Of a stretch of DNA of 39,179 nt, positions 2,541-39,143 are shown piece after piece. The stretch is from a virus. Within the stretch, counting starts at the first letter, position 1. Each line of letters starts with the position of its first letter. A program made the position numbers and the translations under genes. The stretch lies in the IMG/VR virus record IMGVR_UViG_3300032093_000340, positions 1-39,179 of that record. One strand, 5' to 3'. The notes beneath the pieces were generated by a model. It was not told where the DNA came from. It ran no database searches and was given only the letters and a program-made list of their open reading frames with translations.

Positions 2541-3716
2541 TTAGAAGTCTAATCTAACTCTTAACAATAATTCTTCGTCAAACGATTTTTGAACCGGCTT
2601 ACTTAACTTAGCCACTGCCAATAATTCACTAGAATCATTATACAAACCGACAGTAGTAATGTATACTCTAGGATCTTTTCTAAATTCAGAGAATACTAGT
2701 GTTCCAGTATCTGCGTTATAGAAGGTAGGATTGTTAGAGTAATTATATTCTTTGTTACGAAGTCTTACAAAGTAATGTGTTGAAGAAATTGTTTCTGCTG
2801 AACGTGCTTTAAATTGATAATCTTCATCTCGTAACAATGCTTGTTTCATAGAAACAAACAATGATGCGTGATTATACGTTGATTCTGTTGTACCCCAAGT
2901 TAATGAATGTGTTACCGGAGCATATGGTTTGGTTGCAGAAGCAATAGTAGCTTTTGTGTACAAAGCTGTTGGGCTTGTTATTGAACTCGTAGCAGCAGAT
3001 CCTGTAGTTATTCCTGAACCCGATGTGAAGAATCCAACCATTGGTCCAATTGCATTTGGATTAAGTATGATAATACCTAAATCTGGATAGACAAGTCCGT
3101 ATCCCGACCCATTAAATGAACTACTGACTGTACCCGTTGCTAGGGTAGAACCAGATACACCTGTTAATGAACCAGAAACTACGTTATAAACTCTTCCTGC
3201 TTTTGTGTTTGAGGTAAGTGCGCCGCGAGTTTGACCACTATCGTCAATAAATAAATGAACACCATTTGCACCTGATAATGGTAATACCCAATTACCTGGA
3301 TCTAGTTGTTCACGAATACGTGCACGTTGTATGTTAATTACATAAAAATGATCAGACGAATCACCTTGTGAGAAAGTAAATTTGGTATCGCCTGGATCTA
3401 ATAATAAATTACGATATTGACTGTATATTGCTTTAGTTGCTAAAGTTGCTTGCTCATTGTCCGTTAACGTTGGCGAACCACCTCCGTTAACGTGTCCGTA
3501 TGCTACAGCAAATTGTACTTCTGCTAAACTATCCGTGGTGTCTTTGTTATATACATCAAAATAATATAATCCGGAATCACCGTTAACTTGTGAATCTTTT
3601 AAATACATTGAAGTACTAACCAATGAACCCGTATCACCTGACCAAAGCCCAGTAGTTACTACTGTCGGGTTTGCTTCAACTATGTCGTCAGGACTAAAAC
3701 GTGTATAAATACTCAT
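2541..3716 (-). CDS. Virion structural protein (tail/fibre-associated)
   Basis: 391 residues, low in charge and rich in Ser, Thr, Gly and Asn, with many alternating hydrophobic residues typical of beta-rich virion proteins. The N-terminus begins MSIYTRFSPDDIVEANPTVV. The C-terminal 40 residues (ITTVGLYNDSSELLAVAKLS, then KPVQKSFDEE) are nearly the same as in the adjacent 309-residue protein. Such proteins occur in the structural clusters of T4-like cyanophages, usually annotated only as virion structural protein. It lies between two other structural genes on the same strand, with a 15-base gap to the upstream gene. The precise role is unknown. Confidence 0.68.
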   Translation of the reverse strand: MSIYTRFSPDDIVEANPTVVTTGLWSGDTGSLVSTSMYLKDSQVNGDSGLYYFDVYNKDTTDSLAEVQFAVAYGHVNGGGSPTLTDNEQATLATKAIYSQYRNLLLDPGDTKFTFSQGDSSDHFYVINIQRARIREQLDPGNWVLPLSGANGVHLFIDDSGQTRGALTSNTKAGRVYNVVSGSLTGVSGSTLATGTVSSSFNGSGYGLVYPDLGIIILNPNAIGPMVGFFTSGSGITTGSAATSSITSPTALYTKATIASATKPYAPVTHSLTWGTTESTYNHASLFVSMKQALLRDEDYQFKARSAETISSTHYFVRLRNKEYNYSNNPTFYNADTGTLVFSEFRKDPRVYITTVGLYNDSSELLAVAKLSKPVQKSFDEELLLRVRLDF

Positions 3717-3731
3717 ATATTATTCCTAATG

Positions 3732-4370
3732 TTATACGGTGAGTCGTGGGTTAATAGTAACAGGAACACTTATAGTTGCACCAGTTTGGTTACCAACAAT
3801 TACTAATTGTGTTTCTGTTACGGTAGTGACATCTCTTGGAATTAATGTAAAGCTAGTTCCACGAACAACAATAGCATTACTTGTAACAGCGTCACCTATA
3901 AATGTTGGTACAGTTGGCGCACCGGTTAATCCTGTTCCGGTTAATAACGCAGCTTCACCGTCGTAAAGAATTGCGGTATATCCAAATGGTGCTGAGTTAA
4001 GTCCGTCTGTAGTGGTAACCGTAATAATTTGTGACGGGGTTGATGTTGCACTATATGTAAGTTCAATTGACTTTGGATTGACCTGAATTTGAGGAATAGC
4101 GTTTGCACCTCGTGCCAAAGTTACTAACTTATAACGTAGTGATTGTGTTTCATCCGGTGATGCTTCTACTAGTGGTAAATTTTCAATTGATGAACCATAG
4201 TATTCTGTGCCAAGCGGATGTGCCGGATCATATAATCCATAATCAATTTCATCATCCGCTACAGCAAATTGCGTAACGTTAAATGCCGAACGGCCTCTTG
4301 CAAGGAGCTCCCGTCCCTTTTTCGTCAAAATTGCATCAACCGTGACGCTTGAATTGTTTAAATATCCCAT
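3732..4370 (-). CDS. Virion structural protein, T4-like tail cluster
   Basis: 212 residues. The N-terminal part (MGYLNNSSVTVDAILTKKGR, then FAVADDEIDYGLYDP) is a conserved start seen in structural proteins of T4-like environmental phages. It is followed by an Ig-like or beta-rich Val/Thr tail from about residue 95 to the end. It follows the giant wedge-like gene, separated by 67 bases that hold a TATTTATATTA box 28 bases upstream of the ATG. It may therefore have its own late promoter. Its part in the tail or baseplate is not known. Confidence 0.68.
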   Translation of the reverse strand: MGYLNNSSVTVDAILTKKGRELLARGRSAFNVTQFAVADDEIDYGLYDPAHPLGTEYYGSSIENLPLVEASPDETQSLRYKLVTLARGANAIPQIQVNPKSIELTYSATSTPSQIITVTTTDGLNSAPFGYTAILYDGEAALLTGTGLTGAPTVPTFIGDAVTSNAIVVRGTSFTLIPRDVTTVTETQLVIVGNQTGATISVPVTINPRLTV

Positions 4371-4437: not shown

Positions 4438-7400
4438 TTATTGTACTTGCAACGTTCCACCACCACCGGTTTGAATCTCTGTGTTTGTTTGTGTCGGTGA
4501 TACGACAAGTTCGTTTCCTTCACCAATAAATACTTGTACCGGCGGTAAACCATCAATTGTTGTATCTACGGTATTTTTACATCCTTCATAGTTTCTACGT
4601 TTAGTTGCTGTAGATGTGTCTCTGTAGAACCGATAATGTTTTGGTAGATATCCAAATGGAATTCTTGGTTCAATTTCAAGTGCGAAATAAAATGCATATA
4701 TTGTTGTACCAAGTTTATCTGTTCCTGTTAGATTGTTAATTGTGTAGTATATTGTGGCATTTGGTGGGAACTCTCCAGCAACAACAAGAGGTATTGGATT
4801 TGTTAATGTCAACTGACTAACGTTCGGTAATACTGTATCAAGTAGTACACCGTGTGACCCTGTTGGAAGTGTTGTAATTGAACGATTAATATCATTAGTC
4901 CGTGCTTCGTCTGTACTATAGAATCGTACTCTTATGTCCGATGTGTTAGATTGAAGTGCAAATAAAACTAATGTATTTTGAAGAACCGCTTCACCTATTG
5001 CGTAAGATCCAGAACCAATACTTGCTACTCTAATAGTATCAACATAACGATCTGGAATGTCTACTATTCTGTCTACAGAAACCGTTGTTGTTCTGTAGTT
5101 ATTTAATTCCGGCTGCGATACTGTAAATATATCGTATACAATTTTTCTAGGTTCTCGTACTTCGGTTGGCTTAAACTTTAATAACTGCCAATTATTTCTA
5201 TCCAACGATGGTGGCAAATAACTTGGAGTTCCACCTAAATAATAGGAAGTTCCATCAGAAGGAGCGGCATACGCAGCTCTTGTGTTAAATACATAGTATC
5301 TACCATTACCACCTTGTGCGGTTGATGCCACACTCTCTAAATTTTGATCATATAATGATACGTCTTGATATACTACATCATAAATATTGTATGTTTGCCC
5401 GTAAGACCAAGTAGTTGCTGCTTCAAAATTAATTGGTTTAGGATATACTGGTAGTTTTTCTGTCTTAGCAAAGAGATATACACCTTCTGGGTTATTGAAA
5501 TATGTTCTGGTACCAACATCTGTCAAATCCGCTATTGGTTTGATTTCACGCAATGCAGGGATATACAGACTTGTTACTCCACCAGTTCTATTAATTTCAA
5601 TTTCTTGTTTAAATAATTTTCTTGTGTATACTCTTCTATAAGGCTCAGCTCCCTCACTACCATAATTAATATCGTTGTACTTGATTTTATTTCCTATATC
5701 ATTTTCTAAATTAATTATAGTTTGTGGTTTTGGACGATTCCACGCATATCCCGGCGAACCCTTATAGGAACCAGTAACGTCCGAGTCAACTTCATTCATC
5801 AGTCTGTATGTGGCTGATTCTCCAATAAATCTAAAATCATCATATCTGTTTATTACTGAGCTGGTGTAATAGTTTACCGTAGCATAAGGTATTTGTTGAA
5901 CTATACTATTAGTCACATATCCTTTAATAGTATTGTTTGCGTTAGATTCAATTGTAAGTGGTTGTTCTAAACTACCGCTAATTTTTTGTAAATCTGCTGA
6001 AGTCTCTGCTACAAGGTTTGGTAACGTAGTTTTTAAACTACTAGTAACGGTTGTTAGTGCTGTAGACTGTAGTACTTGTATCGGCGTTGACGGTACCGTT
6101 GCTAATAATTTTCCGTTTTGAGAAGCAATGGAAGATTCTATACTAATATCCGATGACTTACTAATTGCTGATTGATATGAATTGTATTGTGCTGTTAATC
6201 TATTTTCCGCTGATTGCGACAATGATGTTCTGTAATCTGCGTATTTTGCATTAACTTCTGTTTCTTGTAAAAATTCAATTTCTGTTTTAAAGTTACTTGG
6301 TTTACCGGACATCGACAACAAATCGTTACTGATATCAATATCTGTTTTATATGATGTTGACGAACCGAGTACCGTTCTTTCTTGTTCTAAATCAATTTGT
6401 TGGCTAAGATTAAATGTTGCCGCATAGTCAGGTTTACTTCCAGTTAATGACGATGCAGCGTTTAATGTTTTTCTTGTACCAGCACCGTAAACACGAAGAT
6501 TTTTTGTCAACGGAATTGTTGTTCTTTCTAGAATATTTGGTTCTATTAGTATGCCCTTAAATAATGTAGCTTTTGATGGAATAAAATAATTCAAAGTTTG
6601 ATCGAGTACAGAACTGATACCGGAGAGAATTCTTATAAATTTATTTATGTTTATTGGGGCATAGTAGAACTGGCTATAATACTCTTGTAAAGTGGAAATT
6701 GTTGGATTTCCTGTTCTATAAAAATCAACTGGCAATCCTAATATATTATTAATATTTTCTGCGCCAAGATTTCTTATGATATTTTGATTGACGAAATCTG
6801 TTGGTGATAACGCAAGTAGTATCTCGTTTCGTGTAGCTTGTAGTCGTTTTTTCTCAACACTAACAATACTAGTTGATCGTGATAATTTTTTCACACCACC
6901 AGTTGTTAAGTTTTCTGCATTGAATACTGGTTCTGGTGCTATTCTAATTTTATTTGTGACATAAGTTTGTGATCCGACAGTCGGCGCAATCTGTCGAACT
7001 ATTCTACTGTATCTGTTAAACGATCCTGTATTAATGTTATATGTTTCAAATTGCTCAATAGACGGTGAATCGGTAAGTTGTGCATATGGACTTTCATTTA
7101 TTATATAATTTGGCGCAGAACCAGTTAATAGAGAGTTGTCAATTCTATTAAACGATAACTGTGCATATAAGTAATCAGATGGATCGGAATACTCATCTCC
7201 AGCGTTAGAACCAGGATCATATGCATTTGTTTCTATTGTGCCCTGTGATAATGTTTTACCCCACATTCTAAACTCATCTACCGTTCCGTCCATTCGAGCT
7301 TGTACTGCTGATCCAGATCCACCCAAATACAAATATTGAGTATTATTCCAAACAGAATTCAATGGTGCAGTAGATGTTATTTGTGGAGATTTAAATATCA

Positions 7401-9342: not shown

Positions 9343-9843
9343 TCAAACAAACTGTATATTATTTGGCAACGTAATTTTTTCCAGTGGCCCCAGTTCACTA
9401 GCTTTTCTGATTAATTCGTTGTTTGGATTAAACTTAACAATAACTTCCATATTTGTGTTTACGTTTTCCATCAATTCCATAGAAACATCGTTTGATACCA
9501 GTATTTGTATTTGTTTTTTTTGTTTCGGTGGCAACGTAATAGTTGATTTATACTTTCCAGAGTCGGTTAATTGTGATGATGCTCCAGAATTTATATTTAG
9601 CATAGATTTATTATAGAGAATATCTACGATAAGATTTGCATTTTGTGTTAAATTTAGTAATTCTAAAGTACCGACAACCGGCGTTTTATTGGTTGTACCA
9701 ATAGAATACTGTATTGAGGTTGGTGTTGGGACGATGTTATATGAAAACATATTATTTATATTTTCTTCTAATTCTACGTCGGTATATACCTCAAACTTTT
9801 GTAAAAAATCTACAGTACCCGTTGGTGTGGTTTTAATAGGCAT
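9343..9843 (-). CDS. Hypothetical structural protein of the baseplate/fibre block
   Basis: 166 residues from the ATG at 9843 (MPIKTTPTGTVDFLQ). An in-frame upstream TTG overlaps the previous gene and is less likely; a GGAA box precedes the ATG by seven bases. The protein has a mixed alpha/beta look with many Asn and Thr, no Cys and no transmembrane segment. It starts one base after the stop of the repeat-rich fibre-like gene and ends nine bases before the giant wedge gene. It is thus translationally linked to both and probably co-assembled. I do not recognise the family. Confidence 0.6.
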   Translation of the reverse strand: MPIKTTPTGTVDFLQKFEVYTDVELEENINNMFSYNIVPTPTSIQYSIGTTNKTPVVGTLELLNLTQNANLIVDILYNKSMLNINSGASSQLTDSGKYKSTITLPPKQKKQIQILVSNDVSMELMENVNTNMEVIVKFNPNNELIRKASELGPLEKITLPNNIQFV

Positions 9844-32601: not shown

Positions 32602-33072
32602 ATGCCACCACGCAAAAAGCGAATCACCAAAAAAGCATTGTTTCAAAAAACTATCGAAATTATCCAACCCATCCTGCGATTGAGTGACTGGAAGATTATG
32701 GTGGTTTTTTCCCATTCTCAGCGGATGAAAGAGACGGCAACGTGTGAAGCTGCACCAGAGTATAAAGTAGCTAAAATTAGATTAAATTCATACGAAATGC
32801 CCAATCTATCTCATGAAGAAATCGTATCCACCGCCATTCACGAAATGTTGCATTGTGTCTTGTGGGAATTGGGAGAATGGGGATATAAACTTAGCCGAAA
32901 GGACGAGACTAAATTAGAATTGAGTAGAAAATATGAAGAAGCAGCCGTCACCAATCTAGAAAAGATTTTTTTACCTCTTCTAGAAGAAACCATCAACGCT
33001 GAACTTAAGGTACACGGATATTATGGGGTTGACTTGACTTTTACTGATTTCGGTGTGTCTACCGAAAGATAA
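32602..33072 (+). CDS. HExxH metallopeptidase-like protein (SprT-like)
   Basis: 156 residues. The zinc-protease motif is AIHEMLHCVLWELGE (His80, Glu81, His84), with a preceding strand AKIRLNSYEMPNLSHEEIVS. This arrangement is like SprT and other small zincin-like phage proteins. The third metal ligand is not obvious, although acidic residues lie further on (ELSRKYEEAAVTNLEK). The basic start MPPRKKRITKKAL may bind nucleic acid. If active, it would cleave phage or host proteins. The gene is relatively rich in G and C and is followed by a strong terminator. Confidence 0.66.
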   Translation: MPPRKKRITKKALFQKTIEIIQPILRLSDWKIMVVFSHSQRMKETATCEAAPEYKVAKIRLNSYEMPNLSHEEIVSTAIHEMLHCVLWELGEWGYKLSRKDETKLELSRKYEEAAVTNLEKIFLPLLEETINAELKVHGYYGVDLTFTDFGVSTER

Positions 33073-33096
33073 ATAATACTTATATAGGTAAGTTTA

Positions 33097-33143
33097 GAAA
33101 GGGTTTATGTAACAGAAATGTTATATAAGCCCTTTCGTTTTTT
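33097..33143 (+). terminator. Rho-independent terminator
   Basis: GAAAGGG (33097-33103) pairs with CCCTTTC (33130-33136), with further pairing of TTAT/ATAA and TAAC/GTTA inside. It is followed by G and then six T. It ends the early rightward transcript before the lysis genes. Confidence 0.88.
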
Positions 33144-33167
33144 ACACACTTTAATGTATTGTATATT

Positions 33168-33344
33168 ATGATACACACTATTATTGATGTTTGGGGATAC
33201 TTAAACATTATAATGGTTATAGTACTAATACTGTTTGGGTTAAACCCCAGCGGGTTTCTTGATGTGGTAGATTGGGTTCATCGTCGTTATGTTAACATAC
33301 ACAAATGGATACGAAATCTATGGCAAAAGAACAAAGTAATTTAG
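33168..33344 (+). CDS. Small membrane protein before the lysis cassette
   Basis: 58 residues from the ATG at 33168 (MIHTIIDVWGYLNIIMVIVL); an earlier TTG is less likely. One membrane segment (LNIIMVIVLILFGLNPSGF) is followed by a basic, Trp-rich amphipathic helix (WVHRRYVNIHKWIRNLWQKN). No clear ribosome site precedes it, and its end overlaps the next gene by 40 bases, so it is less secure than the others. Its topology would fit a holin-type or pinholin-like peptide. Confidence 0.42.
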   Translation: MIHTIIDVWGYLNIIMVIVLILFGLNPSGFLDVVDWVHRRYVNIHKWIRNLWQKNKVI

Positions 33345-33814
33345 ATCCAAAGATGGCACTTAAGAAAACCCAAATCGAAGCATCTATTGACCTCAAACGC
33401 CAAGAGTTGATGGCTGATTTGGAACTTAAGAAAACTGAAAATGAATTGCGTAAAATGGAAGCTCATTCGACGGCAAAAGATGTCGCCAGTAAGTTTATTG
33501 GTAAGACGGCAATTCCGTGGATTGTACTATTAGTTATTGTCGGCGTTGTATCAAGTGCATTCCTCCCATCTGAATCACTCCCGGCAGTTATCGGATTAGT
33601 GTCTACTGCGGTAATGGCATTTATCACGATGTTGAGTGGTATCACGGGGACTAGAGAAAAAGAAGAGAAGCCGGAAATTGAAATCATCAAGAGCCTTATC
33701 AAGCAATTGGATGAAGCTCGTGAACCAATGAACGTAGAATTGGATGGTGATAATGTAGTAGTGTCAAAAGGCAACACCACAATGAAAACCACAGGCAAGA
33801 AAAGAGGAAGATAA
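33305..33814 (+). CDS. Putative holin / lysis membrane protein
   Basis: 169 residues from the ATG at 33305; the ATG at 33320 (MAKEQSNLDPK) is an equal candidate. A charged helical N-terminus (IDLKRQELMADLELKKTENE) is followed by two membrane helices at about 78-97 (IPWIVLLVIVGVVSSAFL) and 102-122 (VIGLVSTAVMAFITMLSGI), then a soluble tail. It is directly followed, with TAATG overlap, by another membrane/coiled-coil gene and by two lysins. This supports a role in lysis, by inference from position and topology. Confidence 0.55.
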   Translation: MDTKSMAKEQSNLDPKMALKKTQIEASIDLKRQELMADLELKKTENELRKMEAHSTAKDVASKFIGKTAIPWIVLLVIVGVVSSAFLPSESLPAVIGLVSTAVMAFITMLSGITGTREKEEKPEIEIIKSLIKQLDEAREPMNVELDGDNVVVSKGNTTMKTTGKKRGR

Positions 33815-37137: not shown

Positions 37138-37166
37138 TTGACAAACTCAACACGCTGGTGTATAAT
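37138..37166 (+). promoter_or_regulatory. Perfect consensus sigma70 promoter of the RNA segment
   Basis: TTGACA (37138-37143), exactly 17 bases, TATAAT (37161-37166). This is a textbook E. coli-type consensus with no mismatch, driving the tRNA and ncRNA segment. Confidence 0.88.
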
Positions 37167-37391: not shown

Positions 37392-37644
37392 CTTGGTGCA
37401 CCGAAGCGCAGTCGAGGTGATGAAATGAAAGAACGTGCAAAATCTTTCAGCCAAAAGTTCCCGTCAGCTTCAATGGTTGTCTGACGTTAAACAATGAATC
37501 ATTCCGTTTCCACGACACGGGATACGCTGTGGGGTTGGTTAGTGCTTTCTTACCAAACAAGAAACGCAAAGGTTAAGGGGAGCGGGTCTAGACCGCGCGA
37601 CATCCTTGGGTAACTGGAAACTACCTCAATTGTCACCCCTCTGA
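37392..37644 (+). ncRNA. Structured spacer between tRNA-Glu and tRNA-Gln
   Basis: 253 bases without a credible protein gene. Hairpins: TGAAAGA/TCTTTCA (37426-37449), GTCAG/CTGAC (37463-37485) and TTGGT/ACCAA (37535-37556). A domain closed by AGGGG/CCCCT (37576-37640) contains the palindrome GGTCTAGACC (37585-37594). Its density of stems suggests a folded RNA rather than plain spacer. No known family is recognised. Confidence 0.4.
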
Positions 37645-37715
37645 TGCCCACTCGTATAATGGCAATACAGTTGACTTTGGATCAACGAATCGTGGTTCGA
37701 TTCCATGGTGGGCAA
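37645..37715 (+). tRNA. tRNA-Gln (UUG)
   Basis: 71 nt. Acceptor TGCCCAC/GTGGGCA plus A; anticodon stem GTTGA/TCAAC with loop CTTTGGA, anticodon TTG; regular T-arm with GGTTCGATTCC. CCA is not encoded. Confidence 0.94.
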
Positions 37716-38028: not shown

Positions 38029-38137
38029 GCAATACTGATGAGGCCTTAATGGCCGAAAGGTTTCCCACGGCGATTCTAGAGCATGGGGAAATTAAAATGG
38101 GACACACTCATAGAACGCCGGTCCCTACCTCTATTGC
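38029..38137 (+). ncRNA. Hammerhead ribozyme, type I, with extended stem III
   Basis: The catalytic core reads CTGATGA (38035-38041), stem II GGCC-TTAAT-GGCC, then GAAA (38055-38058). Stem I is GCAATA (38029-38034) with TATTGC (38132-38137). Stem III begins AGGT (38058-38061) with ACCT (38127-38130), so that A15.1 pairs with U16.1, and continues through CGGCG/CGCCG and TTCTA/TAGAA. The predicted cut is after C38131. All invariant core bases are present. The long stem III arm is unusual. It would cut the lipoprotein mRNA 3' end away from the downstream tRNA transcript. Confidence 0.84.
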
Positions 38138-38222
38138 AAGGAGACTTCCTCGTAAACGTATGTACGAGAATTAGTCTAATCAATGATGGTAAATGGTAAG
38201 CGCACCAGACTCATTGGCCCAC

Positions 38223-38335: not shown

Positions 38336-38338
38336 CCT

Positions 38339-38409
38339 GCGGTTCTAGTGTAATAGCTAGCACGGTTGGCGTCCAGCTAACAGGTCCGGTGCAACTCCGT
38401 GGAACCGCT
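38339..38409 (+). tRNA. Degenerate tRNA-Gly-like RNA (UCC)
   Basis: 71 nt with a perfect acceptor stem GCGGTTC/GAACCGC and the Gly discriminator U. The D-stem is GTGT/GCAC, the anticodon stem GTTGG/CTAAC, and the loop CGTCCAG reads UCC. Several invariant bases are lost: U33 is G, the D-loop AATAGCTA lacks G18-G19, and the T-loop TGCAACT has G in place of U55. One T-stem pair is a mismatch. It may be a decayed tRNA, or a special tRNA not used on the ribosome. Confidence 0.55.
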
Positions 38410-38414
38410 CTTGT

Positions 38415-38497: not shown

Positions 38498-38579
38498 GCG
38501 TTCGTGGCGGAACTGGCAGACGCACCAGATTTAGGCTCTGGCGATGTAAATCGTGTGGGTTCAAGTCCCTCCGAACGCA
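38498..38579 (+). tRNA. tRNA-Leu (UAG)
   Basis: 82 nt with a long variable arm, as in class II tRNAs. Acceptor GCGTTCG/CGAACGC plus A; anticodon stem CCAGA/TCTGG and loop TTTAGGC, anticodon TAG; canonical T-arm GTGGGTTCAAGTCCCTC. It starts 11 bases after the CAU tRNA. Confidence 0.95.
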
Positions 38580-38588
38580 TAGTAAGGC

Positions 38589-38617
38589 TTGACAACTTGA
38601 TAGAATTGATGTAAGTT
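38589..38617 (+). promoter_or_regulatory. Candidate promoter of the large RNA
   Basis: TTGACA (38589-38594), 17-base spacer, TAAGTT (38612-38617). The -35 is perfect and the -10 is weak (three of six). It would start the large structured RNA near 38624. Confidence 0.5.
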
Positions 38618-39015
38618 GAATATGTTGTTTGACAACAATCGGCGTGACGATGGTATCCATCCTAATTAATACCGTCACGCATCCGATTAGTAATCCCGCT
38701 GGGGTTACTGTAAACGGGGCACGGCGCCCGGGGTAAAAGTCCTCTATAAACCGCAGTGGTATCCATCGTGTCTTAACCTACGATGTAAAATACAAACCTT
38801 CGGGTAATACGTTAAGCGGTCGTATTGTCGAGACGAATACGCGGTACCCAATAGCCGATAAGTATTGGGAAGAGTGGTCCTCTTGTTGACGGCATAAGGC
38901 CGTTCATCTTAAATCAGCTGGTGTAGATGTGGCTACACCGTCCTGTCAGAATTCACAGGCGAATAGATGGCGTGATACACCATCTACCACAGTCTCCATA
39001 TCCACGATGGATATT

Positions 39016-39042
39016 GGGACGGGCGCTCTAGTCCCGAAGCGC
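39016..39042 (+). other. Interleaved stems (pseudoknot or antiterminator)
   Basis: GGGAC (39016-39020) pairs with GTCCC (39031-39035), and GCGCT (39023-39027) pairs with AGCGC (39038-39042). The two stems cross. The first shares bases with the terminator stem and could compete with it. Confidence 0.5.
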
Positions 39043-39064
39043 ACAACAAGTCTCGGGATTTTTT
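39032..39064 (+). terminator. Rho-independent terminator or attenuator
   Basis: TCCCGA (39032-39037) pairs with TCGGGA (39053-39058), followed directly by six T. It ends one base before tRNA-Lys, so unless read through it would cut off the downstream tRNAs from upstream promoters. Confidence 0.75.
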
Positions 39065-39065
39065 A

Positions 39066-39139
39066 GCCTCCATAACTCAATTGGTCAGAGTAGCTGGCTT
39101 TTAACCAGTAAGTTCTAGGTTCGAGTCCTAGTGGGGGCA
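39066..39139 (+). tRNA. tRNA-Lys (UUU)
   Basis: 74 nt. Acceptor GCCTCCA/TGGGGGC plus A; anticodon stem GCTGG/CCAGT and loop CTTTTAA, anticodon TTT; T-arm CTAGG-TTCGAGT-CCTAG. It begins one base after the terminator T-run. Confidence 0.95.
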
Positions 39140-39143
39140 CTAT

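Follow-up and report, generated by a model that had tools for sequence, protein, structure and literature searches.

GOLLD and ROOL are RNAs of phage tRNA islands that form cages, and some of the bridges in these cages are symmetric kissing loops (PMC12286853). ROOL has an Rfam model, and no function has been settled for either RNA (PMC12286853). Here we describe a 39,179-bp IMG/VR virus record (IMGVR_UViG_3300032093_000340, hereafter the window) whose tRNA array contains a structured stretch that, judging from sequence comparison, is a real non-coding RNA and represents a new family among the RNAs of phage tRNA islands.

The window carries genes typical of tailed viruses (baseplate wedge, endolysin and phosphoesterase) and also encodes a UvdE-like nuclease and a tmRNA. 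Compared by baseplate protein, the closest named phages are Microcystis phage Mel-JY01 at 41% and the immuto group of Flavobacterium phages at 38%. The 3′ end of the window runs into a tRNA array. A 166.6-kb relative (L002/G001) extends this array and carries the RNA stretch with 100% identity. In the window, 486 bases separate tRNA-Leu(UAG) from tRNA-Lys.

A first-pass annotation of the DNA had proposed that this gap contains no gene but at least nine strong hairpins, packed more densely than expected of plain spacer. We scanned positions 38618-39064 (447 nt) for perfect Watson-Crick hairpins (stem of at least 6, loop of 3-12) and identified seven, at 38623, 38764, 38806, 38847, 38920, 38964 and 38998. 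Sixty dinucleotide shuffles gave a mean of 1.0 and a maximum of 3, and 20 coding segments of the window contained at most three each. The dense packing is thus borne out, although only seven perfect stems reach 6 bp and a count of nine needs shorter or imperfect ones. The folding energy is lower than that of all dinucleotide shuffles (MFE z = -3.5 and -3.4 in two runs). Elsewhere in the window, positions 33001-33447, a region read as coding, fold with z = -8.3 on one of the two strands tested. Folding of one sequence alone can mislead, which leaves some room for chance hairpins in plain spacer or for a coding gene that has degenerated.

Scanning with the window's endolysin led to one divergent homologue, in the 23.9-kb viral contig IMGVR_UViG_3300047550_002510 (L125, positions 3511-4001, nhmmer 4.7e-50). 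The match spans the whole RNA; 157 of 477 aligned columns differ, for an identity of ~67%. It is likewise flanked by tRNA-Leu(UAG) and tRNA-Lys, so the RNA has the same pair of tRNA neighbours in both of these diverged viruses. The two sequences share no open reading frame, as every frame has stops in at least one of them; this agrees with the proposed absence of a gene and argues against a degenerate one. The Leu-Lys junctions of three relatives (L091, L098 and L099) measure about 10 nt and lack the RNA, which makes it an optional cassette. In these three, the tRNA-Leu anticodon is UAA, versus UAG in the window and L125.

The first-pass annotation had recommended a search for homologues with covarying pairs and had held that a lack of compensatory changes would count against a structured RNA. 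L125 carries many such changes, in counts that all come from two distinct sequences and so represent one evolutionary comparison, below R-scape-grade statistics. When the structure predicted from the window alone was placed on a sequence-only alignment, its 139 pairs comprised 73 unchanged, 10 one-sided, 16 two-sided, 35 broken and 5 gapped. Column permutation of the substitutions (n = 2000) produced a mean of 6.3 two-sided pairs and a maximum of 15. Sixteen compensatory pairs were reached in 0 of 500 shuffles, and slid pairings yielded 1-4. RNAalifold on both sequences returned 107 pairs, 20 of them with compensatory change. In our curated structural alignment, 18 helices with 94 pairs are conserved in L125: 70 pairs are unchanged, 19 compensatory and 5 one-sided, and 0 are broken. 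These counts overstate the agreement, since both sequences guided the fitting. When the window sequence and the curated structure of P8-P14 were turned into a covariance model, L125 scored 92 bits; 43 of 43 pairs are standard and 15 compensatory. One-sided changes give G-U on the + strand and would be A-C mismatches on the other, which identifies the + strand as the RNA.

Since paired mutations have preserved the fold in a distantly related second virus, we regard the stretch as a real RNA. At the level of sequence comparison, it shows a fold conserved by compensatory change, at least one covarying pseudoknot, + strand orientation, a lack of coding capacity and constant tRNA neighbours. Unless the alignment is wrong, the compensatory changes refute a plain spacer, and we consider that explanation and the degenerate gene highly improbable.

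Table 1. Predicted features of the RNA locus. Positions refer to the window; comments on conservation refer to the comparison with L125.
Feature	Positions	Strand	Support or conservation
tRNA-Leu (UAG), upstream neighbour	38498..38579	+	ARAGORN; same neighbour in L125
Candidate promoter TTGACA - 17 nt - TAAGTT (consensus match; predicted start near 38624)	38589..38617	+	L125 keeps -35 and spacing
Predicted structured non-coding RNA gene, about 440 nt	38624..39064	+	Fold, hairpin excess, homologue, covariation
P1 CGTGACG/CGTCACG	38643..38679	+	Invariant in both sequences
P2	38688..38710	+	1 compensatory pair, 1 one-sided
P3 hairpin GGGGC-ACG-GCGCCC (L125 GAGGC-ACG-GCACTC)	38716..38729	+	1 compensatory pair
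P4 GGGG-TAAAAGT-CCTC	38730..38744	+	Invariant
P5 domain (ACCGC/GCGGT) around P6 (38764-38785) and UUCG-capped P7 (38796-38805)	38750..38820	+	1 one-sided change to U-G
Pseudoknot pk1: P6 loop CUUAAC (38772-38777) with J7/5 GUUAAG (38811-38816)	38772..38816	+	Complementary in both sequences
P8	38821..38841	+	3 of 6 pairs compensatory
P9	38847..38869	+	4 of 6 pairs compensatory
P10	38870..38884	+	1 one-sided change to G-U
P11, one bulge	38887..38906	+	2 compensatory pairs
P12	38920..38939	+	1 compensatory, 1 one-sided
P13, self-complementary loop hexamer GAAUUC (38949-38954)	38942..38959	+	Stem 3 compensatory, 1 one-sided; loop GAAUUC kept
P14, loop CGUGAUACA	38964..38986	+	2 compensatory pairs; loop invariant
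P15 of window, variable hairpin	38992..39020	+	Not conserved; L125 has a longer, different hairpin region
3′ element: P16 GCGCU/AGCGC interleaved with P17 GUCCCGA/UCGGGAU, then U6	39023..39064	+	P16 invariant; P17 2 compensatory pairs
tRNA-Lys (UUU), downstream neighbour	39066..39140	+	ARAGORN; same in L125

Hairpins P1-P14 follow one another along the RNA; the single long-range helix, P5, encloses P6 and P7 (Table 1). The P5 domain is the best-conserved part. Its pseudoknot pk1 reads CCUAAC/GUUAGG in L125, with one compensatory pair (U-A to C-G), and P17 reads CCCCCGA/UCGGGGG there. We rejected a long-range closing helix in the window's minimum free energy fold (38723-38729/39021-39027) because it breaks in L125, whereas the local hairpin P3 covaries. 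The perfect hairpin at 38806/38821 is superseded by 38821-38826/38836-38841 on comparative evidence, and those at 38623 and 38998 are not conserved in L125.

Several loops are kept while stems change, including CGUGAUACA (P14), UAAAAGU (P4) and GAAUUC (P13). Such exposed conserved loops could serve as a decoy for a host protein or nuclease, in counter-defence or translation control. The only repeated identical motif is UGGUAUCCAUC, however, which occurs twice in the RNA and of which the second copy alone is largely kept in L125; we think a decoy quite improbable. The GAAUUC loop of P13 would also suit a symmetric kissing contact between chains, as in cage-forming RNAs. Because such hexamers arise in loops by chance, the palindrome is weak evidence for this contact.

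Both the candidate promoter and the predicted terminator proposed by the first-pass annotation are present. The TTGACA box lies at 38589, 17 nt ahead of a weak -10 (TAAGTT); L125 has TTGACA-17-TATGTT, in which the -35 and the spacing are kept and the spacer letters are largely changed. The terminator candidate consists of GTCCCGA/TCGGGAT and six T (39031-39064) and falls outside our simple hairpin scan because its loop is 15 nt. The 3′ element is predicted to form an H-type pseudoknot or an intrinsic terminator. It ends 1 nt short of tRNA-Lys, and L125 shows a similar abutment (one nucleotide or none).

This arrangement points to the chief rival of an independent RNA gene, a cis-acting leader in which a promoter, a long structured sensor and a switchable terminator set read-through into tRNA-Lys-Ile-Met-Leu-Gly. 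The order of promoter, structured RNA, hairpin with U6 and genes matches that of a riboswitch or attenuator, the interleaved P16 and P17 could compete, and a run of U immediately upstream of tRNA-Lys would likewise be consistent with action in cis. Since no promoter-like site of 10/12 or better is listed between the RNA and tRNA-Lys, the downstream tRNAs would need read-through. On the other hand, two predicted promoters farther upstream, at 37138 and 38223, likewise drive read-through of tRNAs into the RNA, attenuated tRNA operons are unusual, and 440 nt with some 18 helices exceeds the needs of a switch. A cis-acting leader is therefore unlikely, if still the strongest competitor. Its more specific form, in which the leader senses a signal and P16/P17 with U6 would set the output of the downstream tRNAs in a riboswitch-like manner, strikes us as doubtful; if true, it would represent riboswitch-like control of tRNA genes.

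The hairpins might instead merely shape and protect the transcript of the tRNA array and present its ends to RNases. Both ends of the RNA adjoin mature tRNA ends, and other spacers in these arrays carry structured RNAs too, several closed by long terminal stems. Yet ~10 nt between tRNA-Leu and tRNA-Lys suffices in relatives, and neither invariant loops nor a pseudoknot nor a -35 box of its own would be required of a processing spacer or insulator. We judge this role improbable. It and the decoy are both less likely than either a trans-acting particle or a cis-acting leader.

We identified several further RNA elements in these arrays. An uncatalogued structured RNA lies between tRNA-Glu and tRNA-Gln in the window (37393-37645) and in four relatives (L088 4620-4845, L091 6852-7027, L098 11842-12025 and L099 11690-11863); across the five sequences, RNAalifold predicts 43 pairs, of which 17 show compensatory change. 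A stem-closed RNA of ~200 nt follows tRNA-Gly in L002 (10894-11087) and L004 (10858-11090), with 73% identity and 60 pairs (8 compensatory, 0 broken). Another stem-closed RNA lies between tRNA-Pro and tRNA-Val (L002 15530-15650, L091 8031-8155; 26 pairs, 11 compensatory, 0 broken). A short element (L002 15651-15724, L004 10209-10282) has an acceptor-like stem of 7 bp, is ~95% identical in the two viruses and is not called as a tRNA. We also detected an aberrant tRNA-Gly-like gene (window 38337-38412, L088 5149-5220, L091 7115-7185, L125 3345-3416) with a UCC or ACC anticodon, an odd anticodon-loop position 33 and a T-loop with GUGCAAC. This gene is conserved in many relatives despite the presence of normal tRNA-Gly genes. 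It joins tRNA-Met directly in the window; in L088 the two are separated by a 337-nt RNA-like insert (5223-5559) with a ~20-bp terminal stem.

A candidate type I hammerhead ribozyme is located directly after a small lipoprotein gene in the window (38029-38138) and L125 (3039-3150). It comprises stem I GCAAUA/UAUUGC, the core CUGAUGA...GAAA, stem II GGCC-UUAAU-GGCC and stem III AGGU/ACCU with an insert of ~70 nt, and cleavage is predicted after C38131. The L125 copy has CUGACGA and a compensatory stem II (GCCC/GGGC). Rfam hammerhead models gave no match in the window, and just these two copies emerged when 2.5 Mb of loci were searched under constraints. The stem III insert forms a conserved RNA of ~80 nt (window 38053-38135) that looks pseudoknotted, with UUUCCC/GGGAAA interleaved with CGGCG/CGCCG. 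It also occurs in L124 (4690-4770) and L131 (9780-9860), without the hammerhead core. Since these arrays combine a candidate ribozyme with several additional RNAs that are conserved yet uncatalogued, they make the viruses a good hunting ground.

No third distinct member of the family was found in IMG/VR motif scans, GTDB genomes, named phages and plasmids, or a covariance model search of related records. Real matches to the motif pair TAAAAGTCC..GTCNTAACCTA in IMG/VR were confined to the known contigs; those in GTDB genomes were Nostoc repeats that lack the remainder of the RNA. In IMG/VR, the pair GGCGTGATACACC..TACCACA occurred only in the two known contigs, and other matches of the GGGGTAAAAGTCCTCT scan were due to chance. 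BLAST (blastn) of named phages and plasmids gave no match. Across 97 loci, plus two groups of 50 related records each, a covariance model (R2) matched just the two known contigs. We also rejected a candidate homologue in L004: the spacer that precedes its tRNA-Lys, at the syntenic position, is protein-coding. The family may be rare, or may evolve too fast for these searches.

We favor, at a probability of about 0.5, a trans-acting, highly structured RNA gene of ~440 nt that is an optional cassette in the tRNA array of an uncultured group of tailed viruses. Its own promoter would start the RNA near 38624, or the RNA may be left over from trimming of tRNA-Leu. The 3′ end would come from the U6 hairpin, from RNase P cleavage at the 5′ end of tRNA-Lys, or from both. 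The RNA would then accumulate as a stable folded molecule and, in the manner of GOLLD and ROOL, work as an RNA particle during virus replication, with self-association perhaps via the P13 loop. The case for a role in trans is argued by analogy with those RNAs.

Very few large structured RNA families are known from bacterial viruses, and this RNA adds a smaller family with independent covariation support. It occupies the same kind of genomic site as GOLLD and ROOL, is compact enough for probing, cryo-EM and deletion, and bears on the reason phage tRNA islands gather large RNAs.

The first-pass annotation had left open whether the RNA is a new class or a divergent member of GOLLD or ROOL, and had suggested Rfam covariance models as a check. 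These models, including GOLLD, ROOL, HEARO and raiA, gave no match. In the Rfam scan of the window nothing other than tRNA or tRNA-like models matched, whether at gathering thresholds or even at E<=5, and the L125 homologue likewise matched no family. The same library does detect GOLLD in the tRNA array of a related 382-kb jumbo virus, L093, at 187 bits (3514-3976), which favors a new family; we rejected a divergent GOLLD, ROOL, HEARO or raiA.

Skipping-rope RNA (RF02924) is also present in the L093 array (9419-9510), but its model is only 80 nt long and has no match in the window. OLE, HEARO and raiA, which the first-pass annotation or the literature names, are large structured RNAs of bacteria; the RNA stretch matches no Rfam family. 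ROOL is a phage or prophage RNA found near tRNA islands, with many stems and pseudoknots and no known partner protein (PMC12286853). Very high abundance and an RNA-only complex are further marks of ROOL. It differs in that Rfam 15 scans gave no match to it, and the window RNA is shorter than the 659-nt ROOL example. GOLLD (RF02032) is a large, ornate phage RNA near tRNA islands with multiple hairpins and pseudoknots that forms a homo-oligomeric cage, and the window RNA shares its setting as a phage gene in a tRNA island. In contrast, the covariance model of the GOLLD 3′ conserved domain is unmatched at E<=5, we recognized no shared conserved part, and many GOLLD RNAs exceed 800 nt, versus about 440-490 nt between the flanking tRNAs here. 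Judged by sequence, the window RNA thus has no defining feature of GOLLD or ROOL and resembles them in location and build only.
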